DNA of 64,000 nucleotides from Candidatus Liberimonas magnetica (GTDB lineage Bacteria; Elusimicrobiota; Endomicrobiia; Endomicrobiales; JAFGIL01), in the NCBI GenBank assembly GCA_020523885.1, contig JAJAPY010000005.1:1-64000 (forward strand), in the 5' to 3' direction. The notes beneath the pieces are model-generated. The model searched no databases. It was not told the DNA's origin and was given only the letters and a program-made list of their open reading frames with translations. A program made the translations under genes and the position numbers. Shown here piece by piece: positions 10,392 to 40,127 of this stretch (positions are counted from its first letter, which is position 1; each line of letters begins with the position of its first letter).

Positions 10392-12569
10392 ATGTCAAAA
10401 ATAGTAGCTACAGCGGTAATGAGCGGCGCGGCAAAAATATTGGCGGACGTTAAAGAAAAATATAAGGTTATTTTAAACGCAAAGGGGCCGGAATTTGAAA
10501 CAGTGTTTCCCGGGACAGCTTACTACCTGCCCATGATTTTTGCGCTTACAGGCGTTAAGATTCAGAAACTAAAAGACATCGGGAATTTTCTCAGCTATGC
10601 GGAAAAGTTGATTCATAACCCGCCGCTTGAAAAAAACTGGCTGCCGTACCTGGGCGATGCGCTTGACAGCGGCCTTTCTACCCTGATGCTTGAAGAGATA
10701 CTTATGATGTTGAAGTACATTGAAGGAACAGAACCAAAAGAAGGCTACCTCGGGTTTCTTTCAGATACACAGATGAGGACTCTTGGCATACAGCTTGTAG
10801 ACGGCAGGATGCCCGGGTTTGCGGCGATACTTGGCGCGCCGAAGGATGCCAAGGCTGCGGTAAAGATTGTGCGCGAGCTGCAGGAAAAAAGTATCCTTAT
10901 ATTTTTAAGCGGCTCAAGCAATGGCTATACCATGAAAAAGCATCTTGAAGCTGAAGGTGTGGAAATGGGCTGGGATACGTATATCGTGCCGTTAGGTGAA
11001 GATACTGAAAGCACAATATATGCGCTTGACTGGGCTATCCGTTCAGCGCTTACTTTCGGAGGGCTTCACGGCGGTGCAGGCCAGAAATGCCTTGAATACT
11101 GCCGCGACAGGGTATTTGCGTTTGGGCTGGCGTTTGGCGAGCTAGATGATTTAAAATACGCTACAGGCGCAGGGGCTATTGCAATGGGTTTTCCCATTAT
11201 CGCTGATACGGATATACCTGAAATACTGCCCACAGGCGTGTGCACTTATGAGGAGCTTGTAAAAGAAAAAGATTTAAACAAAATGGTTAGCCGCGCAATT
11301 GAAGTGCGCGGGGTGAAAATAACTGTTTCAAAGCCCCCCATCCCTGTGCTGTACGGGGCTGCCTTTGAAGGCGAACGTGTAAGGGCAGTGGACGTTGCGG
11401 TAGAGTTCGGCGGCAAATACACAAAAGCTTTTGAGTATGTTGAAGGAAAGGAGCTGTCTGAAATAACCGACGGAAAGATTGAAGTAATAGGCAAAGAAAT
11501 TGACGAGGTTGAAGAAGGCGGGAAATTGTATTACGGTATGGTGGCATACGTGGCAGGCAGAAACATGCAAAAGGATTTTGAGCCTGTAATAGAGCGCCAG
11601 ATGCACAGGCTTATTAACCAGGCAGCGGGCGTTATGCATATAGGCCAGCGAAATATCGTCTGGCTGAGGATAAGCAAGGAAGCCAGGAAAAACGGGTTTA
11701 AAATTTCCGACCTTGGCAGGATAGTGCATACTAAATTTAAAGACGAGTTCCCTTCAATAGTAGATAAAGTGGAAGTCCACATATATACCCAGAAAGAGGA
11801 AGCGGAAAAGTATTTAGGCAGGGCCATGGAGCTGTATACAGAGCGCGACAAACGGATGGGTGCTATGACGGATGAAAGCGTAGATACCTTTTATTCATGT
11901 ACGTTGTGCCAGTCCTTTGCGCCTAACCATGTATGTATTATTACCCCTGAACGGCTGGGCTTATGCGGCGCCTATAACTGGCTGGATGGAAAAGCCGCAC
12001 ACCAGATAAAACCCACCGGCCCTAACCAGCCTGTTGTTAAGGGGCACGTGATAGATGCGGTAATAGGAGAATGGAAAGGTATCAATGATTTTGTCTATAA
12101 GTCATCAAATAAGACCTTAGAACGGTTCAGCGCATATTCTATAATAAAGTATCCGATGACGTCCTGCGGATGTTTTGAGTGCATTCTTGCCGTATTGCCG
12201 GGCACGGGCGGCGTGATGGTGGTTGACAGGACTTTTATGGAAATGACGCCTTGCGGCATGACGTTTTCTACTCTTGCAGGTGTAGTAGGCGGCGGCCAGC
12301 AGACACCGGGATTTCTTGGGGTGGGCTTGAATTACCTTGTAAGCAAGAAATTTATTTCTGCTGAAGGCGGGTTGAAGCGCCTTGTATGGATGCCGGCCCA
12401 GATTAAGGAAAGGTTCAGGGCTGAACTTCTTGAACGCGCCACAGAGCTTGGCGTCCCTGACTTGCTGGATAAAATAGCAGACGAAAAAGTAACTAATGAT
12501 ATAGGCAAACTGATAGAGTTTCTTTCAGAAAAAAAGCACCCTGCCCTTGAGATGGGCGAATTGGTATAG
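10392..12569 (+). CDS. acsB: Acetyl-CoA synthase (CODH/ACS beta subunit)
   Basis: A 725-residue bacterial-type acetyl-CoA synthase, close to the 729 residues of the Moorella enzyme, with the N-terminal CODH-contact domain that archaeal CdhC lacks. It joins CO, a methyl group from the corrinoid protein, and CoA. A-cluster cysteines are all present: C503, C506, C515 and C525 for the cubane, and C592-G-C594 for the distal nickel; their spacing equals that of the known enzyme. It starts the second Wood-Ljungdahl block, with acsD 9 bases downstream. Confidence 0.96.
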   Translation: MSKIVATAVMSGAAKILADVKEKYKVILNAKGPEFETVFPGTAYYLPMIFALTGVKIQKLKDIGNFLSYAEKLIHNPPLEKNWLPYLGDALDSGLSTLMLEEILMMLKYIEGTEPKEGYLGFLSDTQMRTLGIQLVDGRMPGFAAILGAPKDAKAAVKIVRELQEKSILIFLSGSSNGYTMKKHLEAEGVEMGWDTYIVPLGEDTESTIYALDWAIRSALTFGGLHGGAGQKCLEYCRDRVFAFGLAFGELDDLKYATGAGAIAMGFPIIADTDIPEILPTGVCTYEELVKEKDLNKMVSRAIEVRGVKITVSKPPIPVLYGAAFEGERVRAVDVAVEFGGKYTKAFEYVEGKELSEITDGKIEVIGKEIDEVEEGGKLYYGMVAYVAGRNMQKDFEPVIERQMHRLINQAAGVMHIGQRNIVWLRISKEARKNGFKISDLGRIVHTKFKDEFPSIVDKVEVHIYTQKEEAEKYLGRAMELYTERDKRMGAMTDESVDTFYSCTLCQSFAPNHVCIITPERLGLCGAYNWLDGKAAHQIKPTGPNQPVVKGHVIDAVIGEWKGINDFVYKSSNKTLERFSAYSIIKYPMTSCGCFECILAVLPGTGGVMVVDRTFMEMTPCGMTFSTLAGVVGGGQQTPGFLGVGLNYLVSKKFISAEGGLKRLVWMPAQIKERFRAELLERATELGVPDLLDKIADEKVTNDIGKLIEFLSEKKHPALEMGELV

Positions 12570-12578
12570 GAGCGGTTT

Positions 12579-13505
12579 ATGCAATACGATGACGTAAAAG
12601 AGAAATGGAGCGGAGCTGTAAACGAGCTGGCGCTCTCTGATAAAATAAAAATCGGCGGAGAGACGGCATTTTCGTATCACAGGTTTGAAGGGAATTTCCC
12701 CAACGTTCCTTTAGTTGCAATGGAAATAAATGATGTATATCCAAAAGCCTGGCCGGTGTTTTTAAAGGATTCCATAGGCGAAGATGCACTGAAAAACCCG
12801 GTTACGTGGGCTCAAAAATGCGTGAACGAATTTGATGCTGACCTGATATTTTATGATATGCCCGGCACGCACCAGGATAAGGAAAATATCGGGCCGCAGC
12901 AGGCAGCAGAGGGCATGAACGCTGTTTTAAGCGCAGTTGAGTTGCCCGTTATAGTAAGGCCGGACGGCAATAACGATAAAAAGAATGAGGTTTTCTCCAA
13001 ATGCTGCGAGCAGGCAAAAAGGCAGATAATAATTGGTTCAGCCAAGGAAGATAATTACAGGACAATAACGGCTTCGGCTATGGCAGGAAAACACTTTATA
13101 ATTACAGAAGCGCCTATTGACGTAAATATATCCAAACAGACAAATATACTTGTAACACAGATGAACTTCCCGCTTGATAGGATAATTATGGACCCGCTGA
13201 CAGGCGCTCTGGGGTACGGGCTTGAATATACGTATTCCGTAATGGAAAGAATAAGGCTTCAGACTTTTAATGACGATAAAATGATGTCCCCGCCTCTTAT
13301 ATGCTGTGTGGGCCAGGACGTCTGGAAGGCAAAGGAAATAAAGATCGAAGCCCAAAACCTGGGCAGCAACCTGGAAAGAGGCATTAACTGGGAAACCACA
13401 ACTGCTATAAGCTTAATTTTATCCGGCGCTAATATAGTCGTTGTGCGCCACCCGGAATCGGTGAAATTGATCAAGAAGTTTATTAAGTCATTATATAATA
13501 GTTAA
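12579..13505 (+). CDS. acsD: Corrinoid iron-sulfur protein, small subunit
   Basis: A 308-residue TIM-barrel protein of the AcsD/CdhD family. It includes GETAFSYHRFEGNFPN near the start, ADLIFYDMPGTHQD, and MDPLTGALGYGLEYTYSVMERIR. It forms a heterodimer with the large subunit and helps hold the cobamide that carries the methyl group to AcsB. TAGGAGCGG precedes the ATG and the gene follows acsB closely, so they are one operon. Confidence 0.93.
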   Translation: MQYDDVKEKWSGAVNELALSDKIKIGGETAFSYHRFEGNFPNVPLVAMEINDVYPKAWPVFLKDSIGEDALKNPVTWAQKCVNEFDADLIFYDMPGTHQDKENIGPQQAAEGMNAVLSAVELPVIVRPDGNNDKKNEVFSKCCEQAKRQIIIGSAKEDNYRTITASAMAGKHFIITEAPIDVNISKQTNILVTQMNFPLDRIIMDPLTGALGYGLEYTYSVMERIRLQTFNDDKMMSPPLICCVGQDVWKAKEIKIEAQNLGSNLERGINWETTTAISLILSGANIVVVRHPESVKLIKKFIKSLYNS

Positions 13506-13571
13506 GGTCATGTATGTCCAAATTGGATAGCATAACCCGATGAAGACCGTAGTGGAGATTTAATTACAGCC

Positions 13572-13619
13572 CCCTCACCTCTTTCCTCTCCCTCGAGGGG
13601 AGAGGATTAAAGGTGAGGG
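13572..13619. repeat. CCCTCACC-type palindromic repeat between acsD and acsC
   Basis: CCCTCACCT at the left and AGGTGAGGG at the right flank CCTCTCCCTCGAGGGGAGAGG, giving a long near-perfect hairpin of 48 bp. It resembles a widespread REP-like family. It lies in the 140-bp gap inside the acs operon and may act as an mRNA stabiliser or be neutral. Confidence 0.75.
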
Positions 13620-13645
13620 TGAATTGATTATATGAGGAGAATGAA

Positions 13646-14974
13646 ATGGCATTAACAGGGCTTCAGATATTTAAATTATTGCCGAACAAAAACTGCAACG
13701 AATGCGGCGTACCCACATGCCTGGCTTTTGCAATGAAACTTGCAGCAAAGGCCGCTGAACCAAAGTCATGTCCGTACATTTCAGAAGAAGCAATGGGAGT
13801 CTTAGGAGCTTCCCAGACGCCGCCTATTAAAAAGCTTAGTTTTAGATTATCCGGAAAATCAATAGATATCGGCGCTGAGACTGTAATGTACAGGCATGAA
13901 AAAAGGTTTATTAATAAGCCAGTAATCGCTTTGGAGATAAGTGACGGGTTATCAAACGATGAGTTTGACAAGAAACTCAAAGAAATAATGTCTTATACGT
14001 TTAACAGGGTTGGCGAAGACCTTTTTTGTGAAGGCATATCGCTTCTAAACACTTCAAATAATATTGAAAATTACATAAATAGATATAAAGCGCTGACAGG
14101 CTTAGACAGGGTGATTATATTATCAGGGATTAATCCTGCCATATTGGAGCAGGTATTAAATACAGGGGGCACTCACGCAAATTTAATACTTAACAGTTGC
14201 AGGCTTGCGGATTTTGACGGATATGTAAATATTGCTTCAGGGAAGGATATTAAAGTTGTTGTTGAGGCGGAAAACCCGGAAGAATTATTTGACCTTGTTC
14301 TAAAAGCGGAAGGCAGCAGCATAAAAAACATTATATTGAAACAGAATTCAAATTCTGTTGCGGATTTGCTTAAAAATAATGTTACTTTAAGGCGCCTGGC
14401 ATTAAAAAGGAATTTTAAGCCCGCAGGATACCCCATTTTATCCGAAAGCAGCGACAGGCTGTTTGATTGTGTGACCGGTATCTGTAAATATTCATCAATT
14501 ATAATATTAAAAGATTACAACGGCGCTTCGCTTTTTCCCCTTCTTACCTTGAGGCAGAATATTTATACCGATCCGCAGAAACCTCTGCAAATACAGCCGG
14601 GTATTTATAAAGTCGGTGAACCCGCGGCTGATTCGCCGTTAATGGTTACTACAAATTTCTCCTTAACCTATTTTATAGTTTCAGGTGAGGTCGGCAATTC
14701 GCCTTACAGCGCCTGGCTGCTAATCGCTGATTCAGAAGGGATGTCAGTGCTTACAGCCTGGTCTGCTAATAAATTCTCTCCGGAACTTATCGCCCGCTCG
14801 GTCAGGGACTCAAAGATAGAAAATGAAATCAAGCACAGAAAAATTATAATCCCGGGTTATGTGGCGATCCTGCAAGGCGACCTGGAAGAGAAGCTTGCAG
14901 GCTGGGAAGTTAAGGTAGGCCCGCAGGAAGCAGTAGACATTCCGCAGTACCTTAAAGAAACGTGGAAGCAGTAA
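13646..14974 (+). CDS. acsC: Corrinoid iron-sulfur protein, large subunit
   Basis: A 442-residue AcsC/CdhE protein. The N-terminal 4Fe-4S domain has C17, C20, C25 and C42 in NCNECGVPTC and SCPY. This cluster reduces the cobamide. A TIM-barrel and a C-terminal cobamide-binding part follow, the latter including AWSANKFSPELIARSV. It partners the acsD product. GAGGAG lies before the ATG, and the stop TAA is directly followed by the RACo ATG. Confidence 0.93.
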   Translation: MALTGLQIFKLLPNKNCNECGVPTCLAFAMKLAAKAAEPKSCPYISEEAMGVLGASQTPPIKKLSFRLSGKSIDIGAETVMYRHEKRFINKPVIALEISDGLSNDEFDKKLKEIMSYTFNRVGEDLFCEGISLLNTSNNIENYINRYKALTGLDRVIILSGINPAILEQVLNTGGTHANLILNSCRLADFDGYVNIASGKDIKVVVEAENPEELFDLVLKAEGSSIKNIILKQNSNSVADLLKNNVTLRRLALKRNFKPAGYPILSESSDRLFDCVTGICKYSSIIILKDYNGASLFPLLTLRQNIYTDPQKPLQIQPGIYKVGEPAADSPLMVTTNFSLTYFIVSGEVGNSPYSAWLLIADSEGMSVLTAWSANKFSPELIARSVRDSKIENEIKHRKIIIPGYVAILQGDLEEKLAGWEVKVGPQEAVDIPQYLKETWKQ

Positions 14975-16531
14975 ATGAAAAAGCTTACGCTCATCTCAGG
15001 TAATTTTAACAAAACCATCCTTGTAAAAGAAAATTCCAATTTATTAAGCATAATACAACAAAGCGGGCTCTTTATTGATGCTCCGTGCGGCGGCAACGGA
15101 ACGTGTAAAAAATGCACGGTTTTTATTGATGAAAAACCCCGCCTCACCGGCGGGCAGGCCTGCCTGGCATGTAGGGTAAGCGTTGAGAATGATATGATTG
15201 TAAGGGTGCCGGAATATGCTAACCTTGAATTGAAAAATGAAAAAACGCAAATCGCCAAATATTTTAAAGGGCATTGTATTGAACCTGCGGTTAAAACCGA
15301 TGGGCCGAACAACCTGGGTGCTGCCATAGACCTTGGCACAACTACAATATGTATAGAGCTTTTAGAATTAAACAAGGGCAAAATAGTTGATTCTATTACT
15401 TTCTATAATCCGCAGATAATTTATGGGGCTGATATTATCCACCGCATTGTTTTTGCCCAAAAAGGCGATAATGCGCAATTGCTTCAAAAAAATGTAATTG
15501 ATGAAATAAGAATGGCGATCAATGATTTATGCCTGAAAAACAATTTCAGGCTTGAAGATGTAAAAGCCGCAGTCATAGCCGGAAATACAACAATGATTCA
15601 TCTGGCAATGGGGCTTCCGACAAAAGATATAAGGGAAAAGCTTTATTTGCCGGCACCGGATAAATATCCTGAGGTTAATATTTTAAAAGATGGTAAGATA
15701 TTTATAATACCCTGGGTAGCTAATTATCTTGGAGGGGATATAGTCTCAGGTGTAATTGCGAGCGGGCTGCATAAAAAAACAGGGATTAACATCTTGCTTG
15801 ACATAGGGACAAACGGCGAAATTATAATCGGAAACAATGAGTGGATGGCCGGGTGCGCCTGTTCAGCCGGCCCGGCATTTGAAGGCATGGGACTTAACTG
15901 CGGCATGAGGTACAAAGCCGGCGCAGTAACAAGTGCAACTTATAATAACGGCAAGTTTGAATACTCTGTAGCAGGGGAATCAAAGCCCGGCGGCATATGC
16001 GGGACAGGAGTTATCAGTTTATTAAAACATTTAAGAGAACAGAATTATATTGATAAACGGGGCAAGTTTACAGATAAAGTTACCGATAAAATCAACGGCA
16101 GAAAATCTTTTATACTGTTTAAGGCAGATGACTCGTTTAATAATGAGGTTATTTACATCGACGAAACGGATATTGACAATATTCTAAGAGCTAAAGCGGC
16201 GATATACTCAGGAATGAGCCTTATAATGAAAAAGCTGGATATTCCATTTTCAAATATCAATAATTTTTACATAGCCGGAGGCATCGGGAATGCATTAAAT
16301 ATAGAAGATGCGTTATACATAGGATTGTTCCCTCCCATGGACAGGAAGAAAATTAAATTTATCGGGAACTCGTCGCTTACAGGGGCGGTTAAATATTTGT
16401 TATCTCAAGAAGCAAGAAGCGAAACTTATGATATACAGAAAGCAATCACTTATCTAGATTTAAGCAGTGAGCCAAAATATATGGATGAATACCTGGCAGC
16501 CTTATTTATCCCACATACAGATCAACCTTAA
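14975..16531 (+). CDS. acsV: Reductive activator of the corrinoid protein (RACo)
   Basis: A 518-residue protein with an N-terminal 2Fe-2S ferredoxin domain and a C-terminal ASKHA-type ATPase (AIDLGTTT, IAGNTTMIHLAMG, LLDIGTNGEI, GPAFEGMG, YIAGGIGNALN). It uses ATP to reduce inactive Co(II) corrinoid protein back to Co(I). The first three cluster cysteines are C38, C44 and C47. The last is C63 or C66, only 15-18 residues later, where the family usually has about 30. That shortened loop is encoded by a palindromic repeat. Total length is shorter than the roughly 630 residues of characterised RACo. Confidence 0.9.
   Translation: MKKLTLISGNFNKTILVKENSNLLSIIQQSGLFIDAPCGGNGTCKKCTVFIDEKPRLTGGQACLACRVSVENDMIVRVPEYANLELKNEKTQIAKYFKGHCIEPAVKTDGPNNLGAAIDLGTTTICIELLELNKGKIVDSITFYNPQIIYGADIIHRIVFAQKGDNAQLLQKNVIDEIRMAINDLCLKNNFRLEDVKAAVIAGNTTMIHLAMGLPTKDIREKLYLPAPDKYPEVNILKDGKIFIIPWVANYLGGDIVSGVIASGLHKKTGINILLDIGTNGEIIIGNNEWMAGCACSAGPAFEGMGLNCGMRYKAGAVTSATYNNGKFEYSVAGESKPGGICGTGVISLLKHLREQNYIDKRGKFTDKVTDKINGRKSFILFKADDSFNNEVIYIDETDIDNILRAKAAIYSGMSLIMKKLDIPFSNINNFYIAGGIGNALNIEDALYIGLFPPMDRKKIKFIGNSSLTGAVKYLLSQEARSETYDIQKAITYLDLSSEPKYMDEYLAALFIPHTDQP
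15137..15168. repeat. Palindromic repeat inside the RACo reading frame
   Basis: CCCCGCC-TCA-CCGGCGGG followed by CAGGCCTG, embedded in frame and encoding PRLTGGQACLA next to the final 2Fe-2S cysteine. It shares GGCGGGCAGGC with the intergenic element at 10189-10226. Local GC content is far above the surrounding gene. Confidence 0.65.
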
Positions 16532-17680: not shown

Positions 17681-17687
17681 TGCTGTA

Positions 17688-17737
17688 ATATAAAAGCTCC
17701 CGCCATCGTCTATTGGTCCAGGACATCGCCCTCTCAA
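17688..17737 (+). tRNA. Truncated tRNA-Glu(CUC) 5' half, att scar 1
   Basis: Bases 17699-17737 match the 5' half of tRNA-Glu: acceptor arm CCCGCCA, TC, D arm GTCTATTGGTCCAGGAC, anticodon stem TCGCC and loop CTCTCAA with anticodon CTC. The sequence then departs from any tRNA. About ten bases of 5' flank are also shared with the second copy at 19723. The break in the anticodon loop is a common crossover site for tyrosine recombinases. It is not a functional tRNA. Confidence 0.8.
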
Positions 17738-18020: not shown

Positions 18021-19187
18021 ATGATTAAAAGATTATTTTCCCAAAAACTAAATCATTACCTGAAGCTATTTCCTATTGTTTCTGTTATCGGGCCGAGGCA
18101 AGCCGGCAAAACGACTTTTATAAAAAAGGAGCTGTTTTCATGGAAATACTTTGATCTGGAAAAACCTTCCGATTTTCGAAGAATTGAATCCGATATGGAG
18201 TATTTTTTCAATGAGTATGGCAATCAGTGCATAATTGACGAAGCTCAAAACATGCCTGTATTATTTCCTTTTCTACGCAGTTTTGTAGACACAAACCGCA
18301 AAAAGAAGGGGCGTATAGTTCTTTTGGGTTCAATAAACCCACTGCTAATGAAAAACATATCCGAATCGCTTTCTGGAAGAATTGGATTTGTGGAGATACC
18401 TACTTTCTTATTTTCTGAAATAAGCAAAAAGCTGAAACTAAATTTAGAGAGTTTCTGGCTTAAAGGCGGATACCCCGAGCCCATTAAATGGAAAACAGAA
18501 GACCATATTATATGGCTGGAAAGTTATATCAAAACATTTACGGAAAGGGACGTATTCCGGTATAACCAGATAGACATAACGGCGCAAAAGCAAATTCAGC
18601 TTTTGACAATGATCGCCCATACTCACGGCAAGTTATGGAATGCATCCCAGATTTCGTCCGCTTTCGGCACGAGCTACCATACCATTAATAATTATATTGA
18701 TATACTTAATAAATATTTTATTGTCCGCAGATTGATGCCATATTTTGCGAATGTCGGCAAAAGGCTCATGAAGCACCCCAAAATATATTTTCGGGATGCA
18801 GGCATACTGCATTATCTTCTTGGCATAGATTCATTGGAAATGCTACGGACTTCCCCTTACCGTGGTTTCAGTTTTGAGGGCCTTATAATAGAAAACATAA
18901 TACAGAATCTCGATGCAGTGCCCAATGCCCGTAATGAATATTATTTTTACCGCACTGCCCAGGGAGACGAGATTGACCTTTTAGTAAAAACCGGCAGCAA
19001 GCTTACCGCCTTTGAGATTAAAACATCATCTTCCGTGGGTATCAGCGATTTGTCAGGGTTTCAACGCTGTATGCAGCACCTCAAGATTGAAAAGGGCATA
19101 GTAATTTACATGGGCAAAGAGGACTTCTCTTTAACATCAAACATAGAAGTCAAATCTGCGTGGAAATATTTGATAAATCCTGCATAA
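18021..19187 (+). CDS. AAA_14 / DUF4143 ATPase
   Basis: A 388-residue protein with Walker A GPRQAGKT, Walker B-like CIIDEAQNMP, and RIVLLGSINPLL. A winged-helix region and a C-terminal DUF4143 restriction-endonuclease-like domain follow, with D and EIK in GDEIDLLVKTGSKLTAFEIK. These ATPases are common in bacteria and archaea, often on mobile DNA, but their role is not established. It is the only sizeable gene between the two tRNA-Glu scars. Confidence 0.85.
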   Translation: MIKRLFSQKLNHYLKLFPIVSVIGPRQAGKTTFIKKELFSWKYFDLEKPSDFRRIESDMEYFFNEYGNQCIIDEAQNMPVLFPFLRSFVDTNRKKKGRIVLLGSINPLLMKNISESLSGRIGFVEIPTFLFSEISKKLKLNLESFWLKGGYPEPIKWKTEDHIIWLESYIKTFTERDVFRYNQIDITAQKQIQLLTMIAHTHGKLWNASQISSAFGTSYHTINNYIDILNKYFIVRRLMPYFANVGKRLMKHPKIYFRDAGILHYLLGIDSLEMLRTSPYRGFSFEGLIIENIIQNLDAVPNARNEYYFYRTAQGDEIDLLVKTGSKLTAFEIKTSSSVGISDLSGFQRCMQHLKIEKGIVIYMGKEDFSLTSNIEVKSAWKYLINPA

Positions 19188-19548: not shown

Positions 19549-20331
19549 GCAATATTTGCTATCGCAAATTATTTAAGACAGAAATGAACATCGCCTCTTT
19601 GCGGCGATTACTGGAATATGATATAATCTTTAAAAGCAGTCAATAAACCGTCAAACATTTAGAATTTACCAAAATATAATATAAAATAGTAGAGCATAAA
19701 TCATATTGTAATATCAATAAGAATATATAAGCTGCCGCCATCGTCTAGTGGTCCAGGACATCGCCCTCTCAAGGCATATATTATATTAAAATCCTGTTTT
19801 GAACTTGTGAACGAAAATCTATAAATTGCCCTCCACCTCTCTCTTCCTTATGACGATAATTAATAAAATAACCTAAAATATTAATTGCTATCCAATGCTT
19901 CCTATTTCCTTTTGTTTCCTGATGCAACAGGACAACTTTTGGACAACATTTGATTTTTACTTTTGTGCCGCAATGTTTATGTGGCCAACAGAATCCCAAA
20001 GTACCAGCTATGCTCCCCTTTACGCAGATTACTCTTCTACCTATTGTATTCGGGCCCTTATGGACCTCAGACCACCTAAAAACCCTGTTAAATGGTTATC
20101 TTTATGATATACTTCGAACCTCTTCACCCGCCTTGCGGCGGGATAGAACACTACTAATCATCGGAATAGTGTACTTGAGTGTGTTTTTAGTGAGTAATCT
20201 CAATGCGTTTTTAAAGGTGACCGTCTTCTATATAATAAAGACTTATAGGGCTTGGTCACCTTTGGCGGGCTATACATACTCAAATACCGTATTCTGATGA
20301 TTCTATTGCCCGTTTTTGGGTGCGGCACCGC
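19549..20331. other. Gene-poor junction region
   Basis: About 780 bases without a convincing gene. It holds short hairpins (ATTTGC...GCAAAT near 19565, ATCGCC...GGCGAT near 19589), att scar 2, and CCCGCC-TTGC-GGCGGG (20127-20142). Open frames such as 19950-20297 lack ribosome sites and family features. It is the boundary between rightward host genes and the leftward-transcribed element. Confidence 0.6.
19723..19775 (+). tRNA. Truncated tRNA-Glu(CUC) 5' half, att scar 2
   Basis: GCCGCCA-TC-GTCTAGTGGTCCAGGAC-A-TCGCC-CTCTCAA-GGC (19734-19775) is a better copy of the tRNA-Glu 5' half than scar 1 and continues three bases into the 3' anticodon stem before diverging. It shares about 50 bp with scar 1, including 5' flank, with about three differences. 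No 3' half follows, so the gene is not functional. It marks the probable left end of the large element. Confidence 0.85.
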
Positions 20332-23247
20332 TTAAGCAACAGCGGCATCCGATACCGCACCGTTACCTAGTGATATCCCATGGTTCTCAGCTATAAGCCT
20401 GTTCTGTTCCATATAATCTATAACTAGCCGGTTTTTTAGTAGGTTTATCAAGATTTGTCGCTTTGTTACTCCAAGCTGATCCAATATCTCGGCTTTGCTG
20501 ATAGACCCCTTTCCTGAGCCAACGAAAGCCCTCAAGATAGACAATAACGATGGAATCCGTTTGTCCAGGGTGTTAGCGTACTCAACCTTTATCCCGGGTA
20601 ACACTGCCTTCATCAGCCTGACAACCTCTGCATCCCTTGAGAATACATATATGTTAAAACGTTCCTTTGTATGATTCCTTATCCCGATCCGGCAGACCTC
20701 TTGGTAGAAGTTCTGGATGAAGTCCATAATTCTTACTGACTCTACATCATTATCTTTAAACCGAACTGTCTTATCTTTAAGAGCTACAGCGAAATCATTA
20801 ATATCAGGATTGATACCCATAGACAGTGCCGAATAGTACCCGCTTGGTTTCCTGAAGTTCCCGTAAAGTATTATTGACTTGCAATCACGCATCTCGTTTG
20901 ATCCGCGTGTCTTTCCATAATGCTTGATAATGTATTTATCCTTCAGGCCCTTACTGTTTAAATATTCTCTAATTTTTTCTTCATTCTTTTTTATCTTCAA
21001 AGTAACAAGATAGGTTTTGTCTTCCCCGGCCTGGATCAGTTCTGCTATATTCGGAAGAGTCTCATAAAGGGTCTTTTCTTCTTCAAGTGCTGTCCTGCTT
21101 AGATTCCTACTGTCGCATACAACCGCCGTTACGTTCTCATAAGAAGGCCGCCAGGACATCTTTAGGTACTTACTCTTTATTAACCGGTATCTGGGATCTA
21201 TTAACGCGGAACCGTCTAAAATAGTAGTCCTAAACGGCAAATCCTCAAGCTCTAAGTGCTTGCCTACGAATACTCTGTTGCCGTTACTGTCTATCATGCC
21301 GCCGTGAGATATCAGCGACTCTATTTTCTCAAGGATGCCATACATATCCGGGAGCTTCTTAATAAACCGTTTTTTAAAATGTTCCGTAACCTTATACCCA
21401 CTGCATACGGGGGGAAGAAATCCTTTATTCTTATCTTCATATATTTTCTTGATAATATTTTTTAATTTATCTATTTTATTGAAACGCAGATTTTGCTTGA
21501 TACATGCATCTCTGAAGGTAACAATTTCAGGAACGGTGAGCTCTTTTATCAGCATTAGGTGAGGAGCCTCGTCAATTATTAAATCCGCACGTGAATACTT
21601 CCTGCCTGCATCATCGTGAAAAGCACACAACCCTGATGATATTCCAAACCGTGCCAAGCGTTCAGTGGTTATACCTATAATCCTGTGACTTTGTGCCTGT
21701 CTATAGTTTTGTTTAACATGGCACATAGCCGCTTTACATGTATGGCAAAGTTCACAGCTATACTCCTTATATCCCTGCCGTTTTGAACAACCTTCACATT
21801 TATGTTCGTTTTGGCATTGTGAAAAGCATTTTGCGATACATCTGTCTTCATCATAACCCAGAACGGCGTAGGCATCTTCTCTGCCGATAAGTCTGTTTAT
21901 CTCGTCAACATCACGCGTAACATCATCAGCATATTCGCCAACGAATATACATCCAAAATACTTGTCTCTCTTCGCTTTTTCAGCGATATATTTACGCTTT
22001 AAAAATGATTTATAGGTTCCTGGATCCATAGCAACAGTAACGATATCCTTATTAGGACGCACTAAAGTTTTAAGTATGTCCCCGCCGTTTTCTACTAGGC
22101 CTTCTGTCGTTGAGGCATCCAGACCAGGCTGTGCTTGAATTGTATGTCTTAAATCCATTACAAGGCTATCTACGATATCGCAATCTATGCCTATAGGTTC
22201 TTCAGGGATATATGTTTCATATCCAAGTAATGCCGGATCACCCTGCATCAATGCGGTAACTACTCCAGAAGGTACTATATCGCTGTAGTCATTGTTTTTG
22301 CCGCGATCTAAGGATCCGCCCATACGATAAATAAGTTCATCAATAGATATTGTTAAATTATCTTCAGTAAAACAATGAAACAACCCTTTCTTAAGATTAA
22401 TACCAGCACTGGTAGTAGTGTCTTCTCCGCTTTTATGGCTTGGTAACGGACAGCACAGCCTATACCAGCCATCTTTACTGGGCTTACTAGAAAACTTTAT
22501 CCCAAGAGATGCCAGATAAGCAGGATCTATCTTCAATCCCTGATTTGACAGGGTAGGATCAATCGGAATATCAGGTTCTTTATGTGGGTTTATCTTGCCG
22601 CCGATTACAGTATATTCCTTGAAATCTGAATACTCGTAATACGTTCGCTTGTTTTGATTCAGTATTCTTACTTCTTTCTCAGGGCACTCTTTTTTTCTAC
22701 AGAAAGTCCCTGGTATACGTAAAATTTGGGCTATTTGACAAGCACTGGTGTCGCTATCCAGGGAAATACTAATACCCATTAAGGTATTCTCAAAATCTTC
22801 CTTAATATCTTTCACAGAGAGAAATTCATTAAAAACCCAGTACAGATGAAACCCATGTCCTGAGTCTATGATATACGTCGGTCTTAGTGGAAACTTCAAT
22901 ATCGCACGGAGAGCGTCTTTTCTTGTAGCATAGTTATTGGGTTTTGTATGTCCTTTCTTGCCGTAGTCAAGGTCACACCAAAGCGTTTTTAAATAATAAA
23001 CAGATTCCTTCCCGCCAAAATCATTAAGATGTCTTGGGGCAACTCCGAAATAGAGATTGCTTTTATTATCTGTTCTCCTTAAGCTCTCTATCCTGAAGCT
23101 TTCGATATCCCTGAAGTATCGTTGCAGTATTGGACCATTCAAAAATATTTCCCTTAACTCAACGTACTCGCCGTTTAGCAACCCTGGAGCGTGAACATCT
23201 TCATAAAACTTATGCCGTAATTTTTCTTCTTCATTTATCAGCTTCAT
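20332..23247 (-). CDS. AEP primase fused to Cys-rich superfamily 2-like helicase
   Basis: A 971-residue replication-type protein. The N-terminal archaeo-eukaryotic primase domain has D92-x-D94 in WCDLDYG, SGHGFH (129-134) and D166 before ILRIPGTF. A zinc-ribbon follows with C265, C266, H271 and C292, like DnaG CHC2. Residues 400-860 look like an XPD/DinG-type helicase: a deviant P-loop DPGTYKS (408-414), nine cysteines between 470 and 509, LIIDEAPH (557-563), and later RGSNEMRDCKSIILYG. The C-terminus resembles a winged helix (SISKAEILDQLGVTKRQI). It probably primes and unwinds element DNA. GAGGAGG precedes the ATG. Whether the altered P-loop hydrolyses ATP is open. Confidence 0.75.
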   Translation of the reverse strand: MKLINEEEKLRHKFYEDVHAPGLLNGEYVELREIFLNGPILQRYFRDIESFRIESLRRTDNKSNLYFGVAPRHLNDFGGKESVYYLKTLWCDLDYGKKGHTKPNNYATRKDALRAILKFPLRPTYIIDSGHGFHLYWVFNEFLSVKDIKEDFENTLMGISISLDSDTSACQIAQILRIPGTFCRKKECPEKEVRILNQNKRTYYEYSDFKEYTVIGGKINPHKEPDIPIDPTLSNQGLKIDPAYLASLGIKFSSKPSKDGWYRLCCPLPSHKSGEDTTTSAGINLKKGLFHCFTEDNLTISIDELIYRMGGSLDRGKNNDYSDIVPSGVVTALMQGDPALLGYETYIPEEPIGIDCDIVDSLVMDLRHTIQAQPGLDASTTEGLVENGGDILKTLVRPNKDIVTVAMDPGTYKSFLKRKYIAEKAKRDKYFGCIFVGEYADDVTRDVDEINRLIGREDAYAVLGYDEDRCIAKCFSQCQNEHKCEGCSKRQGYKEYSCELCHTCKAAMCHVKQNYRQAQSHRIIGITTERLARFGISSGLCAFHDDAGRKYSRADLIIDEAPHLMLIKELTVPEIVTFRDACIKQNLRFNKIDKLKNIIKKIYEDKNKGFLPPVCSGYKVTEHFKKRFIKKLPDMYGILEKIESLISHGGMIDSNGNRVFVGKHLELEDLPFRTTILDGSALIDPRYRLIKSKYLKMSWRPSYENVTAVVCDSRNLSRTALEEEKTLYETLPNIAELIQAGEDKTYLVTLKIKKNEEKIREYLNSKGLKDKYIIKHYGKTRGSNEMRDCKSIILYGNFRKPSGYYSALSMGINPDINDFAVALKDKTVRFKDNDVESVRIMDFIQNFYQEVCRIGIRNHTKERFNIYVFSRDAEVVRLMKAVLPGIKVEYANTLDKRIPSLLSILRAFVGSGKGSISKAEILDQLGVTKRQILINLLKNRLVIDYMEQNRLIAENHGISLGNGAVSDAAVA

Positions 23248-23270: not shown

Positions 23271-23501
23271 TTAAATTCTGAATAACATGCTTTTTATACT
23301 CCTTATAGATTCAGCAAAACTGTGTGCCTTCACTTTCAAATCATTTGAATAGTACTTTTTTAGAGTAGCTTCGCATTCGAGCTTATCCCCAAATTCAAAA
23401 CTTATCCTTCCGTTTGTCCTCTCAGTATTCACCAGCTTGTAGCCTAAAGCGTATAGCAAGCTTGACTCATATAAGTCATTAGTTCTATAGACATCCATCA
23501 C
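23271..23501 (-). CDS. DUF5659-like small protein
   Basis: A 76-residue protein with the DUF5659 pattern: YRTNDLYESSLLYALGYKLV, then FEFGDKLECEATLKKYYS, ending with a helix FAESIRSIKSMLFRI. These small proteins occur on phages and plasmids beside replication genes; the function is not known. It lies 23 bases upstream of the primase-helicase gene and is probably co-transcribed with it. Confidence 0.65.
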   Translation of the reverse strand: MMDVYRTNDLYESSLLYALGYKLVNTERTNGRISFEFGDKLECEATLKKYYSNDLKVKAHSFAESIRSIKSMLFRI

Positions 23502-23561: not shown

Positions 23562-23954
23562 CTATATAAGGCCAACCGGCGAGTTATCTGTTCTGGCTAG
23601 TGGTTTCCTATGGCAAAACAAAGAACAGTCATCACAAAGGCAGTTTTTGACCTCTTTTCTTTCAGAGCCTGAACAATTAAGGCACCGGGCACGTATTGCC
23701 TGAATTGGTGTAAGGTCGGTAGTCCCACTTTGGGGTCTCCTACCTGATCTATAGTGCCACAAAGGACAAGCAGTATCTAAACATTCCTTAACTCCTGCCG
23801 AGCTGCCTTTATGGCACCATAAACAATAAAGCCTGATCGCACGTAAAGGCGTCAACTTCCTTTCTTGGAGTTTGATGCTAAATGCTGGTACTACTGATAA
23901 GCTTAAAGCGGGTACTTCAGATGGGGTTACTGCTGGCTGGTAATAAATATCCAT
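23562..23954 (-). CDS. Protein with two tandem zinc-binding motifs
   Basis: A 130-residue protein with an internal duplication. LTPLRAIRLYCLWCHKG with CLDTACPLWHYRSGRRP is repeated as LTPIQAIRARCLNCSGS with CLCDDCSLFCHRKP. Each copy has two CxxC-like pairs and fits small zinc-finger proteins seen in phages and mobile elements. The first 35 residues are low in charge and probably disordered. It may bind nucleic acid. It is the first gene of the leftward replication operon. Confidence 0.6.
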   Translation of the reverse strand: MDIYYQPAVTPSEVPALSLSVVPAFSIKLQERKLTPLRAIRLYCLWCHKGSSAGVKECLDTACPLWHYRSGRRPQSGTTDLTPIQAIRARCLNCSGSERKEVKNCLCDDCSLFCHRKPLARTDNSPVGLI

Positions 23955-23973: not shown

Positions 23974-24230
23974 TTATTTTAATCTTTAGGAGCATTTTAT
24001 TGCCCCATATTGAATTATATACAGAAATATTATATTTTTTAACGTTTTGAACTGGTTATTTTAAAAATAGTTTGAAATTTATTTTAGGGTCAAAAGTACA
24101 TAATTGCCCTACATAATTATTTTATACAAATATCCTTGCAGAATATTCATTTATTTTTAGCTTTTATTTTGAGGCCTTATTTTAGGGCAAAACCACATAC
24201 TTGCCCATATTAGATTATATACAAAGATTT
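23974..24230. repeat. Three long direct repeats (candidate iterons)
   Basis: Three diverged copies of a roughly 55-bp unit start at 23974, 24079 and 24177, about 100 bases apart. Each begins TTATTTTA, has TTGCCC in the middle, and ends near ATTATATACA or TTTTATACAAA. The region is extremely AT-rich and lies just upstream of the replication operon, as expected for an origin or an autoregulated promoter array. No gene is seen in 23955-24427. Confidence 0.6.
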
Positions 24231-24266
24231 CAGAAAAATAGTTCATCAGCAGGCTATTTTAGAAAT

Positions 24267-24304
24267 AAAAAAAAGGCCTAACCATGCTTACGCACGATTA
24301 AGCC
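24267..24304 (-). terminator. Intrinsic terminator after the lipoprotein gene
   Basis: On the minus strand a 13-bp stem, all paired when G-U is allowed, closes a GUAA loop (24275-24304) and is followed by eight Ts. It lies about 125 bases past the lipoprotein stop. Confidence 0.85.
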
Positions 24305-34263: not shown

Positions 34264-35736
34264 TTAGTCTATTAGTTTATTAAACGTTTCTATCTCTGAC
34301 TGTATTCTTGCTTTTGTGGCCGTTATGTCTTCGGGTTTAAGCGTTTCTTTCTCAACTAAATCCCGGATGCAGGCATAGGCAACTATTTTACCCAGGTCTG
34401 TCTCCTGGCTAAACAGTTTCTCTATCTCTTCAACAAAATCTATCTGCTGATTCTTGAGCTTTGGAATACTCCCAGAAGTTAGGTTGCTGAAGTTAATCCG
34501 TTCGCTTAAGGATTCAATCATTTCCTTTGGCACAGTACCGGGCCTATTAGCTTCAACCTGCAAGGCAGAATAGGCAAGTAACGTAATATCTCCTTCAGAA
34601 TTTACCATGTCATTCCATGCCTTGGTTTTTGCTAATTCTGAGAGATCGTACTTGATAAGCAACTCAGCCTTACGCATTACGTCCGTTGTAGTGAACAACT
34701 CATAGATCATATTGACCCTAGATATTTCAGAATCCTCCTTGAAATAGTCGCTTAACAGGTCAAAACAGACCTCAAACTTGTGCAGGATTTCTTCACGTTT
34801 GATTGAAGCATCGTTTAATCCTACAGGAATAGAGCTCTCTATCACATACTTTGCTCCATCAAGCAGGGCAGGCGATGCAGAACCGCAGATTCCTGCTTTT
34901 GCAAGTTCAACCGCACGATTTGCGAGTATATTTCTATAGATAAATCCTAGCCGCCTGCCATCAAGTGAGAGCGTCCCATTTGTCTCCTTAAGCACAAGCT
35001 CTGAAAACTTTGCCAGGAATACTGGTAATGTACTCATGTGTTCCCGCAGTTTCACGAAATGCTTGCCGGATTTCTTTAGAATCTTGCTTAATTCTTCACC
35101 GGTCAGCCTTGTATCGTTTTCAGTGACTGTTTTACAGTTCTTGCCTGAAGTCCATTCACTGATTGCAAGTGCATCATCTCCATTGACATGGGTTAATACC
35201 TTTATTCTGTCTTCTTCGCTCATCTTAAGAACTTCCGGCGGATATACAAACAATGCAAACCTGCCAATCAGGGCTTCATCTAACTGCTGGGCACCGGCAT
35301 AGCTTGAAAAATTCATCGCGGAAAATACCCATTTTACTTTTGTGCTGATTCCCATGATTTTCCTGGACCGGATTATCTCAAGCCACTTGGACTGCATCTC
35401 AGGCAACGCCCTGTTTAACTCATCTATTAGTATAAACTCTTTATCCCAGATCGTGACTGTGCTCGGGATGTATTCAACCTGGCCTTTCTTAAGCAACTGG
35501 ATATTTGGATACCCAAGAACGTCTTCAAACAAAGCCTTGCTTGCATCATAAGCAATAAACTTCTTTGCCAGCGATTCAGCAAGTTTGTAGATCACCTGTG
35601 TCTTAGCGGTCCCGTGGCTTCCTATGAGTAGAAGCGGATCCCCGGTAAGCAAACTTGATAGCAACAAATTCTCATCTTTTTCCTGCCAACCATAAATACC
35701 TAACTTTTCTAATAACATGACTACCTCCGTAGACAA
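34264..35736 (-). CDS. MoxR-family AAA+ ATPase
   Basis: A 490-residue AAA+ protein with Walker A GSHGTAKT (39-46), Walker B FILIDELNRA (D105, E106), sensor WVFSAMN and the arginine-finger region ALIGRFALFVYPP. The C-terminal half is helical. MoxR ATPases act with VWA-domain proteins as remodelling chaperones; the partner is encoded directly upstream. The ATG follows a GGAGG-type site and a terminator-like hairpin lies across its start. Confidence 0.88.
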   Translation of the reverse strand: MSTEVVMLLEKLGIYGWQEKDENLLLSSLLTGDPLLLIGSHGTAKTQVIYKLAESLAKKFIAYDASKALFEDVLGYPNIQLLKKGQVEYIPSTVTIWDKEFILIDELNRALPEMQSKWLEIIRSRKIMGISTKVKWVFSAMNFSSYAGAQQLDEALIGRFALFVYPPEVLKMSEEDRIKVLTHVNGDDALAISEWTSGKNCKTVTENDTRLTGEELSKILKKSGKHFVKLREHMSTLPVFLAKFSELVLKETNGTLSLDGRRLGFIYRNILANRAVELAKAGICGSASPALLDGAKYVIESSIPVGLNDASIKREEILHKFEVCFDLLSDYFKEDSEISRVNMIYELFTTTDVMRKAELLIKYDLSELAKTKAWNDMVNSEGDITLLAYSALQVEANRPGTVPKEMIESLSERINFSNLTSGSIPKLKNQQIDFVEEIEKLFSQETDLGKIVAYACIRDLVEKETLKPEDITATKARIQSEIETFNKLID

Positions 35737-35764
35737 AAAAATAGAGAGGTTTATTTTCCTCTCT
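35735..35764 (-). terminator. Intrinsic terminator between VWA and MoxR genes
   Basis: Minus strand AGAGAGG...CCTCTCT (7-bp perfect stem) followed by ATTTTTTT. It stands between the VWA-protein stop and the MoxR start, so downstream expression would need read-through. Confidence 0.8.
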
Positions 35765-35796
35765 TTTGCATCTTAAAACTTAACTGAAATTGAATC

Positions 35797-37068
35797 TTAG
35801 GCTACCACCTCCTTTATGTCATCAAGTTGTACAACATCCCCGAATGGTTGAAATTCAAGGCAGTTGTCTTTACCGTCAAATAGTATTGTCAGTATTTGCG
35901 GTTTAAAATTCTTTAGCTTTTCAAGAAGTTCATCTTCCAGGCTCGCGAAACCATCAGTAATCACTATAACGTGCTCATGCCTGTGTTCCAGTATGGAATT
36001 CGCAATACAATCAAAATCAGTCCCGCCTGTAGTTTCCACCTCGCCTTTCACCAAGTCAGTAAAAGGGATTTCCTTCACAGCATTTGAAAATGCGTAGATC
36101 TTGCCTATTTTATCCTTGATAGTCATAAGTATTCCCACAATGTCAGGTAATGCATTTTCAACACTGCCTGACACATCAAGATAAACTATTATCCCTTTAT
36201 TCGGCCTTAAACTGCTTTTAGGGATGTAATATCTTACCGGATAAATCCCGCAGGATAGAAGCACAGCTGCACGCCTTAATCTGCATCCTGATAACAAGAC
36301 AGGGGAGACTCTTTCAGCGTCGTTGCCTACAAAACTTTTAAACCTGGCTTTGACGCTGTTTGAGGCATACTTTTCAAGCATCTGCTTCCTCAATGTAAAC
36401 TTACTTTTAAGAATCTCAATGAACAAATCTACCATGTTATCGTAGCATCCCGCATTCTTAAATTTTTCAAGAAGTTTTTCTTTGAGTTCGCTGGCTATCC
36501 TTTCAGCCACATCTGCCGGTATTCCATCACCGCCTGTATGAGATCCAATGAGTGTTACATTAGACGGTACGGTATCAGCAAGTATCCTGAGTGTCTGGAT
36601 CACCTCGCCTGTAGTAAGTTTTGGCGATCTATAATATAGATTGGAATATAGGTTTTCAAATCTTGTTTCAGAAAGACTACTTTTTGGCCGCAATAGACCC
36701 GTCAAGCCTGTAGCAGGATAGAGTTTAGTAAAGAATTTACCACCGTCAGATTGCTCAGAGTACAATTTGCTTATCACAGCGTTGATTATACTGTCCGCGG
36801 CAAAGTTGTCAATCTTTCCTGAGCGGTAGATAAAGTGATTAAACATAGGATGGAGCAGCTCATGGAATACAACACAGAATAAATCTTGCTGAGTGTTTAC
36901 ATACTTATCAAGAAACTCAGGATTGTATTCCAATACACCATCCTTGTTAATGCACACCGTAGGCAAATCTCTATTTTCAACTGTCCTGCTAATAAACCTT
37001 GCTACAAATGATTCCCAACCGAGGGCTTTTCTCAATACGTCTCTTACTGTTTCAAGTGTTATCTGCAT
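35797..37068 (-). CDS. DUF2201-type metallopeptidase/VWA protein
   Basis: A 423-residue protein. The N-terminal part has a zinc-protease-like HELLHPMFNHF (H69, E70, H73); the C-terminal VWA-like domain has the MIDAS sequence YLDVSGSVEN (D298), TGGTDFD and VIVITDGFASL. This is the architecture of the putative metallopeptidase plus VWA-like families found beside MoxR ATPases, as here. Whether the metal site is catalytic is unknown. Confidence 0.82.
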   Translation of the reverse strand: MQITLETVRDVLRKALGWESFVARFISRTVENRDLPTVCINKDGVLEYNPEFLDKYVNTQQDLFCVVFHELLHPMFNHFIYRSGKIDNFAADSIINAVISKLYSEQSDGGKFFTKLYPATGLTGLLRPKSSLSETRFENLYSNLYYRSPKLTTGEVIQTLRILADTVPSNVTLIGSHTGGDGIPADVAERIASELKEKLLEKFKNAGCYDNMVDLFIEILKSKFTLRKQMLEKYASNSVKARFKSFVGNDAERVSPVLLSGCRLRRAAVLLSCGIYPVRYYIPKSSLRPNKGIIVYLDVSGSVENALPDIVGILMTIKDKIGKIYAFSNAVKEIPFTDLVKGEVETTGGTDFDCIANSILEHRHEHVIVITDGFASLEDELLEKLKNFKPQILTILFDGKDNCLEFQPFGDVVQLDDIKEVVA

Positions 37069-37089
37069 AGTGGCCTCCTAAAATAGATA

Positions 37090-37124
37090 GGGGAACAACT
37101 CTGATTAGAACAGAATTGCTCCCC
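37090..37124 (-). terminator. Hairpin terminator, 14-bp stem
   Basis: Minus strand GGGGAGCAATTCTG and CAGAGTTGTTCCCC pair over all 14 positions with G-U allowed, then TATCTATTTT. It lies in the gap before the VWA gene. The T tract is interrupted, so it may be leaky. Confidence 0.65.
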
Positions 37125-37180
37125 TTGTTAAAGTTTCCTTCTTACGTTCTTCTACAACTTCAGGGCCTATAGTACCGTTT

Positions 37181-37495
37181 CTAACGGACCTCCGTGAAAT
37201 AGTCTTTTATCCCGTGTGATGTGCACCACGCAGAGAGTTCTGCCGGTTCTATTTTTTTTGCTGTGAAATAGTAGCCCAATCTATTTATAAAGTGGCAACC
37301 CTGGATGACCAGACTTTTGCTTTCCGCATCAATATAGGTACAGGCCTTCCATTCAGGATTCTCTCGATGAAAACTTTCGGCTTCTTTGTAATCATCAAAG
37401 AACCTGTACTTTATCCTGTTATCCTTACAATATGCTTCAAAGTCCCAAGGACTGACTTCAAAGTATTTCTTCTTATCAACTTTATCTATCTTCAT
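37181..37495 (-). CDS. Hypothetical protein
   Basis: A 104-residue protein with many aromatic and charged residues (DKKKYFEVSPWDFEAYCK, YRFFDDYKEAESFHRENP). A tail WCTSHGIKDYF echoes the N-terminal AYCKDNRIKYRF, hinting at an internal repeat. No family recognised. GGGAGG precedes the ATG; it is 12 bases after the zinc-ribbon gene. Confidence 0.55.
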   Translation of the reverse strand: MKIDKVDKKKYFEVSPWDFEAYCKDNRIKYRFFDDYKEAESFHRENPEWKACTYIDAESKSLVIQGCHFINRLGYYFTAKKIEPAELSAWCTSHGIKDYFTEVR

Positions 37496-37507
37496 CTTAA
37501 ACCTCCC

Positions 37508-37720
37508 TTAGTAACCGAGTTCATCGGCATATTGCTGGTCAATTTTTGCATAGCATTCTCCGCACTTAGGATCTTCAGCGTCTCCACCCTGGGATTTCAC
37601 ATACTGCTTTGTTTTAATATCCCAGGTCCATGTAATGTCGTCATACATTGTCTGGATAACGCTGTTCATCGGCTTATTACATGCCGGACAGATATACCTG
37701 CCCTGTTTATCTTTTTGCAT
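37508..37720 (-). CDS. Small zinc-ribbon protein A
   Basis: A 70-residue protein starting MQKDKQGRYICPACNKPMNS, with a second pair in DPKCGECYAKI. The two CxxC pairs should hold one zinc. It is a clear paralogue of the protein at 39807-40037, with the same first residues and spacing. Both lie in the small-gene operon, each followed by a short unrelated protein. Function unknown. Confidence 0.65.
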   Translation of the reverse strand: MQKDKQGRYICPACNKPMNSVIQTMYDDITWTWDIKTKQYVKSQGGDAEDPKCGECYAKIDQQYADELGY

Positions 37721-37729
37721 GACAGCCTC

Positions 37730-38497
37730 CTATAACCCGAACGCACGGGCAACAATTTGTCCGACCTGATCTTTACGCTCATAACTCATCTTATCTGCAT
37801 CATGGGTAAGCAAGTGCGTAAATTCTGAATACAAATCCCAGTTTGTTCGTACATTCGCGTTCCCTATAACTCTCTCTGAAACCCTGTCAGTAAGTCTCAG
37901 AGGTACGTGCTTTTCTAAAACGAGGTTTTCCAGGAATTCCTTAGGGCTGTCCATTGGTGTTTCGCTTAATTCTACATACCGTGGATATGTCTTTTCCTTA
38001 AAATAATCCATGGCCGTAGATGCATTCTTGAATATCCCATCTAACTCTAGGCCAGCGGTATGGCGATGAATTATCTCGAAAATATCGTGACCTATCCGGA
38101 GCCCATTTGAACATATAAACTGGTATGCTCCGAGTATAAACCCAAATTTAAGTAAGCCATCATAACTATTACTTAATGTGAGTGTTGGGGCCACGCTATC
38201 TATCTCGCCGTTTCGTGCTGTAACTTTGAAGGCCATATCCAAAAACGCGTACTTGGCATATAGCCTGGCACCGTTCTTTGTAACCTCCATTGACACCCGT
38301 TTATACGTTCCTATCTGTGCCAGAACCTTTTCAGCACTTTCTACAGCGTTCTTGTGCTCGATAAGCCGGTAGTTCTCACCGACAACACCTAATAACGAAA
38401 GGTCATCAGCTCGCCTGATCGCATGTTTACCGACGTACATACCATCAGCTGTAAATACCTGTTCTCTTTTTACTGCAAAATCAATTGTATTGTTCAT
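37730..38497 (-). CDS. DUF932 (phage/plasmid-like TIGR03299) protein
   Basis: A 255-residue protein with the DUF932 signature: LGVVGENYRLIEHKNAVE, TLTLSNSYDG, and FICSNGLRIG. The family is widespread on plasmids and phages and its role is unknown. AGGAGG precedes the ATG. It supports the mobile-element nature of the module. Confidence 0.85.
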   Translation of the reverse strand: MNNTIDFAVKREQVFTADGMYVGKHAIRRADDLSLLGVVGENYRLIEHKNAVESAEKVLAQIGTYKRVSMEVTKNGARLYAKYAFLDMAFKVTARNGEIDSVAPTLTLSNSYDGLLKFGFILGAYQFICSNGLRIGHDIFEIIHRHTAGLELDGIFKNASTAMDYFKEKTYPRYVELSETPMDSPKEFLENLVLEKHVPLRLTDRVSERVIGNANVRTNWDLYSEFTHLLTHDADKMSYERKDQVGQIVARAFGL

Positions 38498-38524
38498 TGT
38501 TTTATTCCTCCTATAAGATATCCT

Positions 38525-38920
38525 TCATTCTGCGACCTGCATGTACTGCTCTCGAGAATATTCAGGAACTTCTTTCTCAATAAGCGATTCAGCTAACACT
38601 AAAACGTCATCGAGATAACGTTCATAAAGTTCACCTTCTTCAACTGACTCATAGCGATATGTTTCTTGTAAATCTCCAACGGAGTTCGCTACAAATAGTT
38701 TTAATTCAGCAGACAGTATGATTTTCTCTTGGATGTTTAAGCGGTTAGCTTTTGTGGTGAGTGATTTTATTGAGAGACCGTCTTGAAGTAAGTCATAAAT
38801 CCTTTCTACTTTCTTCGAGCCAATTGGAGTATCAGGTTCCTCTGGGATTTTCAATACTTCAAAATACTTGGCGTAAACATATTTTTCTATAGCGTCTAAA
38901 TTTTCGCGGATCATAGACAT
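38525..38920 (-). CDS. Hypothetical protein
   Basis: About 131 acidic, helical residues (MSMIRENLDAIEKYVYAKY, then YEYVE-like acidic stretches). No family recognised. ATG at 38920 is preferred since GGGAGG stands 10 bases before it; a longer frame to 38947 lacks this. Confidence 0.5.
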   Translation of the reverse strand: MSMIRENLDAIEKYVYAKYFEVLKIPEEPDTPIGSKKVERIYDLLQDGLSIKSLTTKANRLNIQEKIILSAELKLFVANSVGDLQETYRYESVEEGELYERYLDDVLVLAESLIEKEVPEYSREQYMQVAE

Positions 38921-38959
38921 AAACCCTCCCATTGTTAAAATTGGCACTACTTGTACTTC

Positions 38960-39418: not shown

Positions 39419-39440
39419 TTGTTTTAGTCCTCCCATAAAT

Positions 39441-39478
39441 AAAATAGAGCAGCCCCTGGATTGAACAGGAACTGCCCT
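39441..39478 (-). terminator. Hairpin terminator, 12-bp stem
   Basis: Minus strand GGGCAGTTCCTG and CAGGGGCTGCTC pair at all 12 positions with G-U, loop TTCAATC, followed by TATTTTATTT. It follows the DUF6573-like gene. Confidence 0.65.
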
Positions 39479-39499
39479 TACAAGTGCTAACCCTGAGAC

Positions 39500-40037: not shown

Positions 40038-40049
40038 TGTACCCTCCTT

Positions 40050-40091
40050 AAAATAATAAACCAGAGACAGCAAGTATCTGCCATCCCTGGT
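40050..40091 (-). terminator. Hairpin terminator, 13-bp stem
   Basis: Minus strand ACCAGGGATGGCA and TGCTGTCTCTGGT pair at all 13 positions with G-U, then TTATTATTTT. It lies between the Cas4-like gene and zinc-ribbon gene B. Confidence 0.7.
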
Positions 40092-40127
40092 CTTTATGAA
40101 CATGTGAACTTTGTGTACTTTGTACAA

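Follow-up and report, generated by a model that had tools for sequence, protein, structure and literature searches.

A probable primase-helicase replication protein with an altered P-loop and a cysteine-rich insert at one end of an integrated mobile element in an Endomicrobia bacterium

The stretch of DNA that we analyzed (the window) covers positions 1 to 64,000 of contig JAJAPY010000005.1 of Candidatus Liberimonas magnetica, and it contains an open reading frame of 971 codons (P0001) on the minus strand at 20332-23247, where the plus strand is crowded with stops. When the translation was checked, every motif that an earlier note on this DNA had named was found at its residue. The features of the gene and of its immediate surroundings are as follows.

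20332..23247, minus strand: primase-helicase fusion protein (P0001), 971 aa, from the open reading frame and its translation
22603..23247, minus strand: AEP primase domain, residues 1-215, from PHROG 3123/2478, phage and plasmid tblastn matches and an AEP profile
22966..22974, minus strand: AEP motif DxD (D92 and D94, in W-C-D92-L-D94), D94 being invariant with six AEP relatives
22846..22863, minus strand: AEP motif SGHGFH, residues 129-134, with S129, G130 and G132 invariant
22750..22752, minus strand: AEP catalytic-type D166, invariant
22318..22464, minus strand: CHC2-like zinc ribbon, residues 262-310, lacking the last Cys
22006..22026, minus strand: degenerate Walker A DPGTYKS, residues 408-414, from family alignments
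21721..21840, minus strand: cysteine-rich insert, residues 470-509, nine Cys, from the translation and the family alignment
21562..21573, minus strand: Walker B-like DEAP, residues 559-562, with D559 and E560 invariant in the family alignment
21205..21219, minus strand: motif III-like LDGSA, residues 677-681 (family LD[GA]TG), with D678 invariant in the family alignment
20860..20922, minus strand: motif V block HYGKTRGSNEMRDCKSIILYG, residues 776-796, from a profile match
20677..20703, minus strand: motif VI-like QEVCRIGIR, residues 849-857 (family QxxxRxR), read by eye, with a spacing that exceeds that of the family
20368..20535, minus strand: winged-helix-like C-terminus, about residues 905-960, from the sequence pattern alone
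23271..23498, minus strand: DUF5659 protein, 75 aa, upstream of the primase (PF18903, E 1.8e-6)
23562..23954, minus strand: small cysteine-rich (CxxC) protein, 130 aa, preceding the primase, with no curated family above cut-off
19698..19775, plus strand: attL-like repeat, the 5' half of tRNA-Glu(CTC), at the left element end
17687..17737, plus strand: second truncated tRNA-Glu copy (51-53 bp, 94%), from an older or tandem insertion

The gene lies in an integrated element of ~63 kb. An intact tRNA-Glu at about 82485-82561 of the contig bounds the element, a tyrosine recombinase/integrase (PF00589, E 2.5e-30) ends ~11 bp ahead of it, and the attL-like repeat matches contig positions 82449-82526 (79 bp, 90%). 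These boundaries place the primase gene ~0.6 kb inside the left end, with the integrase at the opposite end. The crossover seems to fall in the anticodon region, so that the tRNA regains its 5' half from the element. A second P-loop ATPase (GSGKS; contig 78408-79700) lies ~2.8 kb from the other end of the element, and the coordinates suggest that a circular form would bring primase, integrase and this ATPase within ~7 kb. The AT-rich stretch at 24000-24280, upstream of the small cysteine-rich gene, holds imperfect direct repeats (25 nt, 84%; 16 nt, 88%) spaced 100-200 bp apart, which make it a weak candidate for an origin.

The ends of the element also carry traces of other events. The three 5' copies of tRNA-Glu(CTC) additionally bound a segment of 2 kb that holds a DUF4143/AAA_14 ATPase (18021-19187), and the integrase 3' end recurs as a 30-bp copy (93%) immediately within the left end (19926-19954, matching contig 82387-82416), possibly the remnant of an earlier insertion. 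The cargo includes a MoxR-type AAA ATPase, a VWA/metallopeptidase-like protein, DUF932 and a PDDEXK/Cas4-like nuclease close together at 34264-40895, and reads as including a type III restriction-modification pair (Res 45282-47891, Mod 47891-49405). Beside the element, the host chromosome carries what read as Wood-Ljungdahl genes of the CO dehydrogenase/acetyl-CoA synthase type (10392-16531).

By family and by catalytic residues, both read from sequence, the N-terminus of the 971-aa protein is a true AEP primase, which bears out the proposal of the earlier note. The PHROG primase families 3123 and 2478 match residues 50-209 at E 6e-13 and 1e-10, annotated phage primases match by tblastn at E 9e-9, and plasmid primases match as well. 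The hallmarks of the AEP superfamily, DxD/DxE, SxH (here SGxGxH) and a third catalytic Asp, occur in that order, and D94, S129, G130, G132, D166 and R177 are invariant across seven AEPs that otherwise share little. Against a profile built from 14 viral AEPs, the protein scores 116 bits, while 1000 shuffles reach 4.8 at most; the 116 bits are somewhat inflated, because the seeds were pulled with patterns from this protein and one relative. The viral AEP relatives (L025-L054) have other types of ATPase attached, and the cysteine cluster was found in none of them. The zinc ribbon reported behind the primase is less secure: C265/C266, a His and C292 are present, but the match is weak (PHROG 360, a DNA-primase profile, E 0.047) and the final Cys of the pattern is missing (CFTE). 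Desulfohalobium L098 has a comparable ribbon ahead of its helicase (PF08273, E 0.004).

After residue ~390, SF2-like motifs can be read by eye (DPGTYKS, DEAP, LDGSA, RGSN and QEVCR). Direct searches with this half of the protein returned nothing of use: Pfam, NCBIfam and PHROG scans gave nothing above noise, residues 389-971 had no tblastn match among phages and plasmids at E up to 5, a search of 341 genomes of the phylum yielded noise, and the initial scans of genomes and viral sequences, with this one protein as query, gave no match. A search with the pattern DLIIDEAP returned unrelated proteins, and stricter motif V patterns gave no matches or chance ones. A degenerate DNA pattern for motif V led to three long viral open reading frames, one of which (L090) led in turn to seven plasmid proteins; the resulting family alignment then recovered four strong members in the same phylum, one in the same class and further viral contigs. 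Many genomes gave weak matches to the family profile, and those inspected were SF1 Smubp2-like helicases matching in the P-loop only, which we did not use. Since three of the profile seeds had been chosen by a motif derived from the window, the profile was rebuilt without those three and without L106.

The rebuilt profile matches the 971-aa protein with 24.5 bits (E 4.8e-7), where none of 1000 shuffles exceeds 4.3, over ~100 residues of RecA2 that include the conserved S(R)xxL stretch and the HxGxxRGxNxxxD...G block of the family. With the motif V block masked, the protein falls to 3.9 bits and no longer stands out. Thus the sequence match shows the second RecA domain to belong to an uncurated plasmid/virus helicase family, and the helicase of the earlier note is supported for this domain, whereas the first RecA domain, which by itself scores within the shuffle range, and the cysteine cluster are placed by motif order and spacing. 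Alignments put the P-loop, cysteines, DE, LDG, S(R)xxL block and RGxN in family order. The winged helix proposed for the end agrees with the sequence pattern, but Pfam and the other libraries give no match to it. AlphaFold models were too poor to use (pLDDT 35.7 for the protein alone, 41.0 with nine sequences); Foldseek on them found nothing below E 1e-3, with XPD and DinG recurring among the top matches.

That neither RecA1 nor the cysteine segment exceeds shuffles alone, and that nine cysteines make a four-cysteine alignment easy, would fit a protein in which the AEP is real and the part after residue 390 is a zinc-rich DNA-binding region followed by one RecA-like domain, the P-loop-like string being accidental. 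We consider this quite unlikely, as all motifs occur in family order at approximately family spacing and the significantly matched RecA2 implies a partner RecA domain.

This helicase departs from its family in Walker A. Wherever RecA1 is complete in the alignment, the P-loop reads GK[ST], within an expected GxGK[ST], except in the 971-aa protein, which has GTYKS with Y412 in place of the conserved Gly; the broken P-loop seen by the earlier note is thereby confirmed. Because K413 and S414 are kept, the P-loop is altered rather than erased. One possible consequence, which we rate as somewhat unlikely, is that the helicase half is dead as an ATPase and serves as a DNA-binding platform to position the AEP, while the second ATPase of the element or a host helicase does the unwinding. 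The restriction of the tyrosine to this protein speaks for such a platform, as does the second P-loop protein, which by the inferred distance would lie near the primase in the circular form. However, a dead ATPase need not keep K413, S414, DE559-560, RGSN and QxxxR, and the glycine also varies in another AEP-fused ATPase, L040 (DPSTKKT). The lost glycine could also be the first sign of decay of a gene in a remnant element, and no close homologue with the same change was found; yet the 971-codon frame is unbroken and the AEP, the other motifs and the integrase frame are all intact, and we give decay little credence.

The cysteine insert links the family to better-known helicases. The earlier note likened the protein to XPD/DinG on account of cysteines at the position of the Fe-S insert. 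Four cysteines, each invariant or almost invariant in the aligned family, lie between motifs Ia and II. A profile of the family's cysteine segment, built with the 971-aa protein excluded, matches DinG with up to 33 bits (E 2.5e-9), and the six DinG helicases drawn from the phylum of the host all score higher with it than shuffles and SF1 controls do (L131 is a DinG by Pfam). This comparison of sequences shows that the helicase family is related to DinG/XPD in the cysteine segment. The segment alone discriminates; whole-domain hhalign was set aside, as it gave similar probabilities for the family against DinG and against Smubp2. The 971-aa protein has cysteines at 470, 474, 478, 484, 487, 498, 501, 504 and 509, of which C478, C498, C501 and C509 align by position with the four of the family and the other five are extra. 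A PDB profile search gave weak matches (E 0.04-0.08), among them DinG 6fwr and XPD 4a15/5h8w, whose matches cross the cysteine segment. For the 971-aa protein the likeness is one of position, and a Pfam scan found no DEAD_2 or Helicase_C_2 in the 971-aa protein, so it is not a direct member of that group. PF02399 (herpesvirus UL9-type) had no match above cut-off across the phylum and none at the gene.

The earlier note also expected the fusion to be unusual; it is not unique, as further genomes of the phylum, viral contigs and plasmids have the same architecture. The helicase family is repeatedly joined to primases of different kinds, namely AEP, Prim-Pol, PriS-like and DUF3854. Rhodovastum (L102) has a Pfam Prim-Pol fused to the family helicase, a virus (L093) a PriS-like primase and Chlorohelix a DUF3854, while a Skermanella protein with the family helicase (L099) has a DNA-primase PHROG match. 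Two members from the same phylum, L110 and L109, carry an AEP by the same profile (60 and 27.7 bits), and viral contigs with relatives of their helicase (L135-L142) show the AEP-plus-helicase layout as well. In the same class, L134 (2433-5060) encodes an 876-aa protein with an AEP-like part and a helicase of the same family that has no cysteines in the segment, which indicates that members of this family can lack the metal site.

Taken together, the 971-aa protein is probably the DNA-copying protein of the 63-kb element, and we think it likely that the gene encodes its replication protein, a primase-helicase made of an AEP and a divergent SF2 helicase. That role is suggested by the AEP identity and the helicase kinship, and the remainder of the model is drawn by analogy with CyRepA and AEP-helicase proteins. 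Once the element has excised, opening of the origin and priming of its replication would fall to this protein. The N-terminal AEP would make primers, the C-terminal winged helix may recognize the origin, and the helicase half would open it. The cysteine insert probably would hold an Fe-S cluster or zinc and contact single-stranded DNA as in XPD/DinG, and the five extra cysteines possibly form a second metal site. Y412 is predicted to weaken ATP binding, so that the protein may unwind DNA slowly or leave part of the unwinding to the second ATPase near the integrase. A bolder reading, which we regard as unlikely, is a class of mobile-element replicases that couple an AEP to an Fe-S helicase derived from XPD/DinG; the present member would have acquired a second metal site and given up normal ATP binding, and its XPD-like part would provide the primase with a metal-dependent platform for binding DNA. 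The type III restriction-modification, MoxR/VWA and PDDEXK genes of the element could point to a role in defense or conflict, as part of a TOTE-like module, instead of replication; we hold this to be highly improbable, as the Pfam scan gave no match and no nuclease domain was recognized in the 971-aa protein, and the related genes of plasmids and viruses stand singly and are of the replication type.

What appears new is the DinG-type cysteine segment of the helicase family and, within the family, a protein whose P-loop is degenerate and which has five cysteines beyond the usual four. The DinG/XPD Fe-S helicases would thereby be connected with an uncurated family of plasmid and virus helicases in which fusion to primases recurs, a link that we did not find in the literature searched. 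If the reading is correct, some mobile elements begin replication with a single protein that combines a eukaryote-type primase with a metal-cluster helicase, and the Y412 variant offers a natural way to ask if ATP is required by such a helicase.

DinG and XPD have their cysteines at the same location, between motifs Ia and II (C..C.....CxY, then a strand and DE); the 971-aa protein differs from them in motifs III, V and VI and in its fusion to a primase, in addition to the Pfam domains noted above. Among its closest parallels are the plasmid/virus primase-helicases (L098 from Desulfohalobium, L099, L102, L093, L109-L111 and L135-L142), which share the primase and helicase layout, the motif III Asp (LD[GA]TG or IDAD), an RG-type motif V and QxxxRxR, and whose four cysteines between motifs Ia and II have counterparts by position in the 971-aa protein. 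Identity to them is about 13-19%, and they keep GK[ST] and four cysteines whereas the 971-aa protein has Y412 and nine. AEPs joined to remotely SF2-like helicases on mobile elements were reported in 2018 (PMC5862659), where the All3500-family AEPs of the PrimPol-PV1 supergroup, with SF2-like (UL9-like) C-termini, show the same order of domains; the text of that paper speaks neither of a link to XPD/DinG nor of a cysteine cluster in the helicase. Our comparison with All3500/PrimPol-PV1 draws on its description in the literature. The CyRepA proteins, DUF3854 joined to a DEXD/H-helicase, are working plasmid Rep proteins (PMC10079941). By domain layout, CyRepA1 and CyRepA2 likewise unite a primase-like part and a DEXD/H helicase in one protein that replicates a plasmid, with a Toprim-like DUF3854 where the 971-aa protein carries an AEP.
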